Shown here in pieces: positions 54,610-60,712 of a stretch of DNA of 64,000 nt (positions are counted from its first letter, which is position 1; the number at the start of each line of letters is the position of its first letter). The position numbers were made by a program, and so were the translations under genes. The DNA is from Natronorubrum halophilum (GTDB taxonomy: Archaea > Halobacteriota > Halobacteria > Halobacteriales > Natrialbaceae): assembly GCF_003670115.1 (NCBI RefSeq), contig NZ_QQTY01000002.1, positions 868,001 through 932,000 of the forward strand, written 5' to 3'. The notes under the pieces were generated by a model. The model ran no database searches, had not been told where the DNA came from, and saw only the letters and a program-made list of their open reading frames with translations.

Positions 54610-55065
54610 TTACTCGGTCCGAGCGCTCCGCGCGCCGGTCGGGATCAGCGTCGACACCCGTGCGTTCTCCTTGATCCGCAACCCGCCGTCGGCGACGGTC
54701 AGCGGCATCAACGGCAGGTGCGAGGCGACCAGCACCGACGGGTGCGAGCCGCCGCGAGCCAACAGTTCGTTTCGCGGCTGAAGCTGTGCGGGTTCCTCGA
54801 GATCGGTCAGGAACTCGTTGTGCTGGATGACGTACTGGCCGCCCTCCAGGTTCCACCAGCCGAACTCGTCGTCCGGGTCGCGGAGGTCGGTGGGAACCGG
54901 CTCGAGGTCGGCGTCCTCGAGTTCGTCACCCCCGAAGTCGAGGCTGCCGGGGCCGGCGACGCGATAGATCGCGCTGACCGTCAGATCGATGCCGTGCTCG
55001 TGAACCTGTGTCGGTTCGTAGACGAGATTGTCGACGACGTCGACGAGGGGATTCTCGGCGGACAT
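54610..55065 (-). CDS. dCTP deaminase/dUTPase-like protein
   Basis: 151 residues from ATG 55065 (SAENPLVDVVDNLVYEPTQVHEHGIDLTVSAIYRVAGPGSLDFGG). Shares the jelly-roll dUTPase pattern: GWWNLEGGQYVIQHNEFLTDLEEPAQLQPRNELLARGGSHPSVLVASHLPLMPL. Haloarchaeal homologues are annotated as dUTP hydrolases that keep uracil out of DNA. The motif with the catalytic Asp is less clear here, so the substrate is not certain. Divergent from the MOSC-domain gene. Confidence 0.8.
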   Translation of the reverse strand: MSAENPLVDVVDNLVYEPTQVHEHGIDLTVSAIYRVAGPGSLDFGGDELEDADLEPVPTDLRDPDDEFGWWNLEGGQYVIQHNEFLTDLEEPAQLQPRNELLARGGSHPSVLVASHLPLMPLTVADGGLRIKENARVSTLIPTGARSARTE

Positions 55066-55301
55066 TTCGGTTACCCTGACGATTTCGAGCGATAAAAAAT
55101 GTGTCCTCGAACGGCGGCAGGGGAGCCGTCTCTGGTGGAAGATCGGCAACTATCGACACCTCTCGACGCGTCAGCCGAAACGGTGTGCGCTCTGCTCACG
55201 CCCGTCGCAGGCCACACCGGATCGCACCGATCCGTTTGCGATCGCAACACGAATCGCGCGAACGGATACACATATGCGTCGGCGCGGCGACAGCATGCAC
55301 A

Positions 55302-56238: not shown

Positions 56239-59200
56239 ATGGGATACGGCCTCGATATCGGACCGGGAGCACTCCGGGCGGCCGCCGGCACGTCGGACGA
56301 GGTGACGATCGAGTCGGTACCGCCGGTCGTGACTGCGACCGACGAGGAAACACTCGAGTCGGCCGACGGCGAGCGGAGTGCAGGGCTGGTAGACGACCGA
56401 ACGGGCGACGGACTGTTCGTCGAACATGGCGGGAAGAGGTACGCCGTCGGACCGACCGCGAGCGCCGTTTCCGACGCCGCAGACGGCGATCCGGTATCGC
56501 TGTTCTCGAGCGGTGTCCTCACCGTCGAGGGATACACCGAACCGGCGCTCGAGGCGTTGATCGACGACGTCCTCGAGCGCGTCGAACCGGCGGACGGACG
56601 ACTCTGTTATACGACGCCGGGGACGCTGGTCGACGCGGCGGAGCCGACCGACGCCCACCGCGAGACCGTCGAGTCGGTCCTCGTCGACCGCGGGGTCGAA
56701 TCGACGCCGATTAGCAGAGGGTTCGCCGTCGTTTACGACCAGTTCGTTGCGGACAACTACACCGGACTCGGCATCTGCCTCGGAATCCAGACGACGAGCG
56801 TCGCGCTCTCCTACTACGGCGTGCCCGCGCTGGCCTTCTCGCTCGCGAAGGGCAGCGAGTGGGTGGTCGAGCGGGCCGCAACCGAAACCGGCCGCGAGCG
56901 GACGCAGGTCGCGACCGTCCTCGAGGAGTTCGCGCTCGATCCCGACGCGGCGACGGGCGGGATCGAGAGCGCGCTCGCGCAGGCGTACGACGCGCTAATC
57001 GGCGAGATCACCGAGGCGATCGAAACCGAAGCCGACGAGAACGACGTCCAGCAGGGGATGGCGATCCCCATCGCAGTCGCCGGATCGGGCGCGGTCGACG
57101 GCCTCGAGTTCCTTCTCGGCGGTCGATTCGACGCGGTAGCGCTCCCGTTCTCGGTCCGCGAGGTTCGGCTCGCGGACGATCCCGCTGCGAGCGCTGCCAG
57201 GGGGGCGCTCGCAGCGGCCGAGGACGACGTCGACGCCTACGAGGACGTCACGTGGTCGGCATCCGACGCGGATGACAGTACCGGCGACGGTGGTGGCCCA
57301 CCCTCGTCCGCGATCGAGATCGGCGGTGCGGACGAACAGACGGCGCTAACCTTCGACGACGACGCGCTCGGCGGCGGCGGCGACGCGGCGCACGCCCGAG
57401 CGGACGACGCCATCGAACAGCTATTCGATCGACTCGCCAACCGTGACGAGGAGATCCAATCGGTTCGGACCGACCTCGAGTCGGCCGTCGAGGAACTGGA
57501 GTACATCGAGGCCCAAACCGCCGATGCCCAGCGGGTTGCAGATCTCGAGGAGACGACGGCGGACGAGCGAACGGCGCTCGAGAACCGACTCGGCGACCTC
57601 GCGTCCGATCTCGAGGGCGTGACCGATCGCACGAACGCGTTGGACGATCGCCTCGAGAGGGTCCAAACGGCGCTCGGTGAACTCGAGGCGGAAACCGCGT
57701 CAGCAGCCGACCTCGAAGCCCTCACGGAGACCGTCTCGCGGCTCGACGACGGGTTCGAGGGGATCAACGAGGACGTCGAACGGATCGAGACCCGGATCAC
57801 GGGACTCGCCGGTCGACTCGAGGAACAGGCGACCCGGATCGGTTCCGTCTCGAATCGCGCCGATAAGCGCGCCGAGCAGGCCGACGACGAACGCGATCGG
57901 CTCGCGGACGAAATCAGCACCGTCGAGAGCGAACTGAAGCACGAAGTCGGTACCGTCGAGGGTGAACTGGAGGACGAGATCGACGCTCTCGAGACGACGA
58001 TCGCGGACGAAATCGGCGTCGTCGAGGACGAACTCGAGACGGCCGATGATCGACTCGACGAGATCGAGGAACGGATCGAGGCCGAGACAGACAGTTTCGA
58101 CGAGCGGGTCGCCGACCTCGGCGGGCAAATCGAGACGACTACCGCAGATATCGAGGCGATCGAAGCGGACCTCGCCTCGACGGACGACCGCGTCGAGACC
58201 CTGGACGACGATCTGACCGACGTCCGTAACTCCGCGAGCGCCCGTTCCGACGCGCTCGAGAACCGACTCGAGAGCATCGGCGAAACGATCGACGAACTCG
58301 AGTCGATGACGGCCGACGACGAGCGAGTTTCGGCCGTCGAGGACGATCTTGCGGCCCTCGAGACGGAACTCGGTTCGCTCGACGGCGCGATGTCGGCCCT
58401 CTCGGAGACGGTGGCCGGGGTCGAAGAGCGGGCGGCGTCCGCGGAATCGGTCGACGAGATTACGGTCCACCTCGAGACGGTCGAAAGCGATATCGACGAT
58501 CTCGAGGAGACAGTACACGCGTTCGAAGAGATGCTCGAGGATCGACTTGACGAGACGGCGGAGGGCCTCGAAACGCGCTTCGAGGAAACGACAAGCGACC
58601 TCGAGAGACGACTCGACGAGGCCGCTGCGGCGATCGACGACAGACTAACCGAACTCGAGGGGACGACCGAGCGCCTCGAAGCGGGGAGCGCCGACGACGA
58701 GACCGTTGTGGCGCTATCCGACTCGCTCGCGGACACCCGCGACGCGGTCGAATCGGTGACGGCGGACCTCGGTGATCTTCGAACGGAGTTCGCGGCGGAG
58801 ACCGACGCGCTCGAAACGCGCTTCGATGACGTCGATGGCCGTTCGGCCGATATCGAGTCCCGGCTCGACGAGGTGAGCGAAGCCGTCGGAGCGGTCGAAA
58901 CCGACGTCGAACGGGTCACCGAGACGGTCGCGTCGCTCGAGCGCGACGTCGAGACGATTCCGGACGACCTCGAGCGCCGTCTCGAGGACGCGGTTGATCG
59001 CATCGATGATCTCGCGGACGACACTACCGACCTCGCCCGCGACGCTGACGACCTCGGCGACCGTACCGGTCGGCTCGACGAGCGGACGAGCGATCACACC
59101 TCTCGCCTCGAAGAACAGGCCGCCCGTCTCGAGGAGTACGACGCTCGTTTCGAGTCACTCACGACCGATATCGACGATCTCGCGACGACGCTCGAGGGAG

Positions 59201-59544
59201 TCCCCGACGAATCCGCCGTCGATTCGATCAGAACCCGACTCACAGCGGTCGACGAACGGTTGACTGCCCTCGAGTCACGGATGGGAGCCACGCGGTCGAG
59301 TCGGGATGACGACCTCGAGGAGATCCGGTCGGAGCTCGCGGTTCTCCGGGAACGAACGCCCGACGCTGCCCGGGACGGCGGGAGCGACGGGCTGACGGCC
59401 CTTTCCCCGATCGTTGCTGGCGGTGGCGGGGCCGGCGTCGTGACGGGTGGCGCGCTCGCGCTCACCGGTGCCGGACTGGTGGGTGCCGCCGCGGTCGTGG
59501 TCGGCCTCGTTCTGCTCGGCGTCGCGGTTGCGGTCGATCGCTAA
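56239..59544 (+). CDS. giant actin-fold / coiled-coil / membrane-anchored protein
   Basis: 1101 residues. Residues 1-340 look like an actin/Hsp70-type nucleotide-binding fold: phosphate-1-like GYGLDIGPGALRAAAG, phosphate-2-like GLGICLGIQTTSVALSYYGVPALAFSLAKG and adenosine-like AIPIAVAGSGAVDGLEFLLGGRF, though key acidic residues are missing. After an acidic Asp/Gly linker (340-385) comes a coiled coil of roughly 640 residues (385-1030) made of Glu/Asp/Leu/Thr heptads (e.g. DRLDEIEERIEAETDSFDER). The end (about 1055-1100) has two hydrophobic helices rich in Gly/Ala/Val (AGGGGAGVVTGGALALTGAGLVGAAAVVVG). This architecture suggests an envelope-tethered cytoskeletal or scaffolding protein. No partner gene is adjacent. 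Confidence 0.9.
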   Translation: MGYGLDIGPGALRAAAGTSDEVTIESVPPVVTATDEETLESADGERSAGLVDDRTGDGLFVEHGGKRYAVGPTASAVSDAADGDPVSLFSSGVLTVEGYTEPALEALIDDVLERVEPADGRLCYTTPGTLVDAAEPTDAHRETVESVLVDRGVESTPISRGFAVVYDQFVADNYTGLGICLGIQTTSVALSYYGVPALAFSLAKGSEWVVERAATETGRERTQVATVLEEFALDPDAATGGIESALAQAYDALIGEITEAIETEADENDVQQGMAIPIAVAGSGAVDGLEFLLGGRFDAVALPFSVREVRLADDPAASAARGALAAAEDDVDAYEDVTWSASDADDSTGDGGGPPSSAIEIGGADEQTALTFDDDALGGGGDAAHARADDAIEQLFDRLANRDEEIQSVRTDLESAVEELEYIEAQTADAQRVADLEETTADERTALENRLGDLASDLEGVTDRTNALDDRLERVQTALGELEAETASAADLEALTETVSRLDDGFEGINEDVERIETRITGLAGRLEEQATRIGSVSNRADKRAEQADDERDRLADEISTVESELKHEVGTVEGELEDEIDALETTIADEIGVVEDELETADDRLDEIEERIEAETDSFDERVADLGGQIETTTADIEAIEADLASTDDRVETLDDDLTDVRNSASARSDALENRLESIGETIDELESMTADDERVSAVEDDLAALETELGSLDGAMSALSETVAGVEERAASAESVDEITVHLETVESDIDDLEETVHAFEEMLEDRLDETAEGLETRFEETTSDLERRLDEAAAAIDDRLTELEGTTERLEAGSADDETVVALSDSLADTRDAVESVTADLGDLRTEFAAETDALETRFDDVDGRSADIESRLDEVSEAVGAVETDVERVTETVASLERDVETIPDDLERRLEDAVDRIDDLADDTTDLARDADDLGDRTGRLDERTSDHTSRLEEQAARLEEYDARFESLTTDIDDLATTLEGVPDESAVDSIRTRLTAVDERLTALESRMGATRSSRDDDLEEIRSELAVLRERTPDAARDGGSDGLTALSPIVAGGGGAGVVTGGALALTGAGLVGAAAVVVGLVLLGVAVAVDR

Positions 59545-60104: not shown

Positions 60105-60575
60105 TCAATCGAAGTCCGGCAGATCCTCCGGCGGTTCGTACTGCGCCTCCCAGTCGATGTACTCCGCTTTGAGGAGCACTGAAACGATCTGGCCGAACTC
60201 GGTCAGTTCGGCGTTGATCGAGGAGACGGTTCCCCACGTGTCGAGTTCGGGATGGTACTCTCGAGTCTGCCAGTCCTCCGGAATGCCGGGGGCGTGGTAG
60301 CCGACCCTGTCGGCGAAATCGTCCCAGAAGAAGTCGAACCCGGCGAAGAGGTCGAGATCGCGAGCGATCTCGTACTCTCGCTCCTCGAGGTCAGTGTCCT
60401 CAAGCCACTCCTCGAAGGCTTCCTCCCACGCGCCCTCCTCGAGGAACGCCTGGAGGTCCTCGCGCCTGTAGTCGATCTCGTCGGCACCGTCGGCGCTGAT
60501 CGTCGCGTCCTCGTACTCGTTCGGATCGACGAACTCCAGTTCCGGCGGATCGGGGGCTTCGACCTCGAGCGTCAT
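60105..60575 (-). CDS. acidic conserved hypothetical protein
   Basis: 156 residues from ATG 60575 (TLEVEAPDPPELEFVDPNEYEDATISADGADEID). Extremely acidic (EEGAWEEAFEEWLEDTDLEEREYEIARDLDLF) with a C-terminal aromatic part (FGQIVSVLLKAEYIDWEAQYEPPEDLPDFD). No motif for cofactor or DNA binding. An earlier start with a basic N-terminus is unlikely. Function unknown. Confidence 0.75.
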   Translation of the reverse strand: MTLEVEAPDPPELEFVDPNEYEDATISADGADEIDYRREDLQAFLEEGAWEEAFEEWLEDTDLEEREYEIARDLDLFAGFDFFWDDFADRVGYHAPGIPEDWQTREYHPELDTWGTVSSINAELTEFGQIVSVLLKAEYIDWEAQYEPPEDLPDFD

Positions 60576-60712
60576 GGGCGGACGTAAGGCGGGTTCGCGG
60601 ATAAGAATTCCCACCTCGCGTCCGCCCGAGCGGCGGCACCCGCAGGCCCCAGCGAGCGGTTCGCTCAGAGCCGATCCCTACAATTATTTCCACCACGGTC
60701 CAACAGGCACCT

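Follow-up and report, generated by a model that had tools for sequence, protein, structure and literature searches.

What does a haloarchaeal cell do with an actin-type domain that carries its own long coiled coil and its own membrane anchor? The question is raised by one open reading frame of Natronorubrum halophilum, lying in the 64,000-nucleotide stretch of DNA analysed here (the window; contig NZ_QQTY01000002.1, positions 868,001 to 932,000). The initial annotation read its 1101-residue product as an actin/Hsp70-like fold (residues 1–340), a very long acidic coiled coil (385–1030) and two C-terminal hydrophobic helices, and suggested that it could connect a filament or a nucleotide switch to the cell envelope. 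The frame is real and runs exactly between the ends first proposed, with an ATG at 56239 and a stop codon at 59542–59544; the boundaries given for head and coil are right to within ~15 residues. The features are collected in Table 1.

Table 1. Features of the long protein and its gene (nucleotide positions are those of the window).
Feature	Residues	Nucleotides	Strand	Basis or remark
Whole gene: actin-fold head, coiled coil, membrane hairpin		56239..59544	+	1101 aa
Volactin-family actin fold	1-335	56239..57243	+	PF25216, AF2, Foldseek
Arg160, at the position of the catalytic Glu	160	56716..56718	+	volactin E152, aligned with MamK E143
Degraded phosphate-2 loop, CLGIQTTS	180-187	56776..56799	+	volactin SFGAGMTN
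YYGVP, conserved hairpin at putative actin W-loop position	192-196	56812..56826	+	
Gly/Asp/Ser-rich linker	336-385	57244..57393	+	low conservation, dN/dS 0.52-0.70
Acidic coiled coil	386-1045	57394..59373	+	heptad periodicity
First hydrophobic helix, Gly-rich, short	1062-1075	59422..59463	+	AF2, low to medium confidence
Second hydrophobic helix, likely transmembrane	1079-1100	59473..59538	+	AF2 pLDDT ~90, hydropathy, conserved in aligned tails

The start codon is backed by the orthologues, nearly all of which open with MxxGLDIG or a similar motif. Measured against three orthologues, dN/dS is 0.21–0.32 for the head, which is the most conserved part, 0.44–0.49 for the coil and 0.25–0.48 for the tail; the protein is under purifying selection, with ratios of 0.2–0.5 outside the linker. 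A chance reading frame or a wrong choice of strand is ruled out by the orthologues, the conserved start and these ratios. Long antisense frames, such as a Ser/Arg-rich one of 595 aa at 57237–59024 (minus strand) opposite the coil, are artefacts of the GC-rich, low-complexity coding strand.

The head belongs to the volactin family, a name absent from the initial annotation, and is not merely actin/Hsp70-like. Pfam profile PF25216 (Volactin; curated cut-off 35 bits) matches residues 1–327 over its full length (profile positions 1–321 of 321) with 397 bits and an E value of 7.7e-119, and the most divergent long proteins also match it full length, with 206–257 bits. An AF2 model of residues 1–340, built from the window's own sequence and those of relatives, has a pLDDT of 86.6 and a pTM of 0.87. 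A Foldseek search of the PDB with this model gave 555 matches at E≤0.001, headed by MamK (5ljv, 1.3e-12), BeeR and MreB (E 1e-12 to 1e-11); a single-sequence PDB search found nothing, whereas profile searches did match. The actin half of the first assignment stood, with a more specific family. An Hsp70/DnaK head was rejected: Hsp70 structures match the fold less well, and volactin is the family found by Pfam. A viral origin was also rejected; viral proteins give only distant actin/Hsp70-fold matches.

The genome also encodes a normal, standalone volactin of 342 aa (L048:7941-8969, minus strand; G000:C2 ~1125940-1126968), on the same contig and ~200 kb from the long protein. Volactin (VolA, HVO_2015), typically ~340 aa, has neither coil nor tail and keeps Glu152, Asn11, the GAG loop and GGT, most of which the long protein has lost. 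The head is 31–36% identical to standalone volactins. We do not regard the long protein as a VolA orthologue, as it falls outside the clade of standalone volactins, has 1101 residues with coil and tail against ~340–370 aa, and has lost most of these nucleotide-site residues.

The coil first described as very long and acidic is indeed both. Hydrophobic residues in 386–1045 recur with a period near 3.5 (peak 23.4; the highest of 500 shuffles reached 11.8), and coil-like windows cover 96% of the segment, compared with a mean of 17% (maximum 39%) in 20 shuffled versions. Its 660 residues include three prolines and carry a net charge of -146; core positions are mostly L, I or V, and the remaining positions mostly D or E. 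As one straight helix it would by arithmetic measure ~98 nm. NCBIfam matches to SMC, Rad50 and others score far below the curated cut-offs, and several Pfam coil families that exceed their own cut-offs are generic coil matches to unrelated proteins; none of these was accepted as a relative. Examined for a non-actin head and for the lack of a coil in residues 385–1030, the proposed architecture survived on both points.

The two C-terminal helices were also recovered. An AF2 model of residues 960–1101 shows two coil helices followed by both of them, and the Kyte-Doolittle maximum of the tail is 2.78; the predicted helix or hairpin is long enough to span a membrane, as in an integral membrane protein. 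A tail motif of approximately AGGGGAGVVAG...G...VGAxAVVLGVVLL...R is recognisable in nearly all members from Natrialbaceae, and the long proteins of two other families end in a different but equally hydrophobic segment. Within the genome, the only full match to a model of the tail is the long protein itself; other matches score weakly and fall mainly on the model's coil portion.

Far from being a local oddity, the long protein is an ancient sister of volactin. A volactin-family match above the cut-off is present in 233 of the 391 haloarchaeal genomes sampled and the long protein in 80, namely 75 of 101 Natrialbaceae genomes (counted by open-frame length) and, in a more diverged form, five genomes of two further haloarchaeal families. 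Every genome with the long protein also has a standalone volactin, and among the 391 no genome lacking volactin gave any match. The architecture is constant; in 49 long proteins, two of them cut by contig ends, the head-to-tail span ranges from 115 to 905 residues with a median of 602. Mean identity is 88% among volactins, 50% among Natrialbaceae long proteins and 32% between the two groups, and by this measure the long proteins evolve faster than the volactins, yet under purifying selection.

In a careful tree the standalone volactins form one group, with all long proteins as its sister (86/71). A quick tree with more rows moves the long proteins from the other two families to a place beside volactin instead, and this alternative to a single long-protein group is not rejected (p-AU 0.37). 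In either tree the volactin/long-protein split predates the haloarchaeal families, so that a recent duplication inside Natrialbaceae is unsupported. The topologies suggest that a single fusion ancestral to all long proteins is likely.

Whether the head could act as a nucleotide switch depends on its active site. A profile built from volactins only aligns Glu152 with MamK E143 and SFGAGMTN with the DIGAGTTD phosphate-2 loop, with moderate posterior support in both cases. Substituting D161 or E143 of MamK, or the matching residues of other actins, does away with both ATPase activity and filament dynamics (PMC5059902). The position of MamK D161 is Ser in volactin itself and is therefore not informative. 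Glu152, however, is Glu in 54 of 54 volactins and in none of 49 long proteins, which have K, R, T, S, Q, A or P there (volactin and long-protein residues were compared by alignment, the head model being that of the long protein). Asn11 is likewise kept in 0/49. Among main-clade members, Gly176 survives in 2/45, being mostly Q or E, and Thr277 in 1/45, GGT having become AG(S/D/E/P); the GAG of the phosphate-2 loop is mostly GxQ or ExQ, and in general Gx(Q/E) or worse. Most adenosine-site residues have likewise been replaced. Asp6, most Gly8 and the adenosine-site Gly276 are still present.

Overall, 13 nucleotide-site positions are retained at 0.38, compared with 0.35 for other volactin-invariant positions (p 0.81), whereas MamK, at far lower identity, keeps both the Glu and the GAG loop. 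Since ATP turnover would favour retention of the site, this comparison is the chief reason for regarding the head as probably ATPase-inactive, and by its catalytic Glu and phosphate loops the head does not qualify as an actin ATPase of the MreB/ParM/MamK type. Loss of catalysis is no proof that nucleotide binding is lost.

These substitutions bear directly on the idea that the long protein is a self-polymerising, membrane-anchored actin of the MreB or FtsA kind that uses ATP as a switch. The actin fold is complete in most members and Asp6 and Gly276 persist, as do most Gly8; moreover, FtsA is active with a non-canonical subdomain. The catalytic Glu is nevertheless gone throughout and the phosphate-2 loop, Asn11 and Thr277 are degraded, and 5/49 long proteins lack most or all of subdomain IB, which makes self-polymerisation less likely. 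We consider this reading improbable. Of the two functions first suggested, a link between a filament and the envelope is the most plausible, and the nucleotide switch is disfavoured by the loss of the catalytic Glu and of most volactin-invariant phosphate-loop residues.

The pattern of conservation over the head is uneven. With subdomain limits set by hand from predicted secondary structure, long proteins keep 40% and 35% of volactin-invariant residues in subdomain IIA and 50% in the C-terminal piece of IA, against 9% in IB. The YYxVP hairpin is invariant in volactin, and in Natrialbaceae long proteins Y192, Y193 and V195 are kept in 45/45 and P196 in 44/45. From the order of motifs, taken without superposition, we infer that it corresponds to the W-loop of actin, which makes a longitudinal contact.

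The explanation that we prefer, at a probability of roughly 0.45, is that the long protein is a membrane-anchored, catalytically inactive relative of volactin that tethers or caps volactin filaments. It is backed by the constant presence of volactin in the same genome, the volactin-family head, the eroded site and the better preservation of IIA than of IB. The predicted hairpin would insert in the cytoplasmic membrane, leaving the rest of the protein in the cytoplasm, and the coil would dimerise and hold the head up to ~100 nm off the membrane. The conserved lower face of the head (subdomain IIA with the YYxVP hairpin) may bind a volactin subunit, while the head would be unable to hydrolyse ATP or to let the filament grow on through its diverged subdomain IB. 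A subunit with a sound filament face on one side and a defective one on the other would suit a cap or an anchor, and the head may thus secure or block one filament end instead of serving as an ordinary subunit. In Haloferax volcanii, volactin filaments touch the membrane by their tips and bridge the cytoplasm, so a membrane link for filaments is a real need, and volactin-binding factors, as yet unnamed, have been proposed there (PMC10869688).

Several observations count against tethering or capping. Volactin is reportedly the only identified actin homologue of Haloferax volcanii (PMC7617734), whose anchor must therefore be something else, and the 26 of 101 Natrialbaceae genomes that lack the long protein indicate that use of volactin does not always call for it. 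Long proteins from the other two families do not retain the YYxVP hairpin, which counts against the proposal too, as does the absence of cytoskeletal neighbour genes (see below). Nor does a lost subdomain IB necessarily point to capping, because this subdomain changes rapidly in many actin folds. A fuller version of the tether or cap proposal, which we advance more tentatively, starts from a volactin duplicate that forfeited ATPase activity and acquired both a membrane hairpin and a rod up to ~100 nm long; it would now nucleate or cap the ends of volactin filaments at the cytoplasmic membrane. This would be the first case in archaea of actin itself giving rise to an actin tether.

The same family resemblance and shared genome would also suit a co-assembling regulator, a poisoned, coil-decorated subunit that enters volactin filaments along their length and slows their turnover or bundles them at the membrane. 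ATPase-dead MamK subunits do form stable filaments (PMC5059902). Two-sided incorporation is made less likely by the diverged subdomain IB, and Haloferax volactin filaments do not run parallel to the membrane (PMC10869688); we regard this role as improbable.

A further candidate dispenses with volactin. The coil makes up most of the protein and varies greatly in length, which suggests a spacer, and the head is catalytically eroded, so the whole could be a membrane-bound scaffold, intermediate-filament-like or a golgin-like tether, in which a GspL/PilM-type head dimerises or docks onto a non-volactin partner. PilM is among the fold matches of the head, and GspL combines a degenerate actin fold with a membrane helix. 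The head resembles volactin far more than PilM or FtsA, however, and is the part under strongest constraint, and no pilus, secretion or division gene occurs among the annotated neighbours, which include MOSC, MFS and metabolic genes. We think such a scaffold unlikely. No neighbour with a cytoskeletal role is conserved in 18 loci compared, 12 of which have MOSC upstream and 11 of which have an MFS gene downstream. Two small proteins without a Pfam match, encoded at 54610–55149 and 60105–60614 (both minus strand), keep their position near the long gene in 9/18 loci.

Comparison with known systems underlines the unusual layout. MamK, BeeR and MreB (5ljv, 8r2n, 8aam) are 14–20% identical to the head over the fold; they lack a long coil and, unlike the long protein, retain the catalytic residues. 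MreB contacts the membrane through RodZ and by a loop or helix of its own. GspL, PilM and FtsA are likewise actin-fold proteins that work at the membrane, but their domains are laid out differently, their sequences are distant and none has a coil hundreds of residues long. Tail-anchored coiled-coil tethers, golgins among them, share a long coil, a C-terminal membrane anchor and a binding head by analogy and not by homology. Salactin, the haloarchaeal actin homologue of polar filaments, belongs to a different family and lacks coil and tail.

The initial annotation knew of no described haloarchaeal actin homologue that carries its own long coil and membrane tail. Our literature search found none in the volactin family or among other archaeal actins, albeit with incomplete coverage of archaeal-actin reviews, where a prior mention is possible; the fusion is widespread. 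The family of the head is already in Pfam; apparently unreported are the architecture, its distribution and the way in which the catalytic site has been lost systematically. Very few partners of archaeal actins are known, and no anchor has been reported for the membrane-bound tips of Haloferax volactin filaments (PMC10869688). For Natrialbaceae, the long protein offers a specific candidate for a link between actin and membrane that can be put to the test, and there natural variants in spacer length and natural losses allow comparison. If the tether or cap explanation is true, a pseudo-enzyme actin has become an accessory factor of its own filament, comparable to eukaryotic actin-related proteins, and these archaea have a genetically encoded link from filament to envelope.

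We note some irregularities among other actin-family genes. One Natrialbaceae genome without the long protein (G374) has its volactin gene in two pieces on the same strand, covering profile positions 1–101 and 95–332 and ~8.8 kb apart, as if split by an insertion (L137, G374:C54:66867-67586; L146, 57721-58026). Another genome, G130, carries two equally scoring full volactins on different contigs and a third copy spread over two frames (L136, L139, L147). The weak matches of 350–430 aa that served as outgroup, presumably salactin, form a second haloarchaeal actin-like family with the motif GVKLGSTRTV (L158–L178); it is probably salactin with its paralogues, and within one genus (f4 g82) some genomes carry two or three copies.
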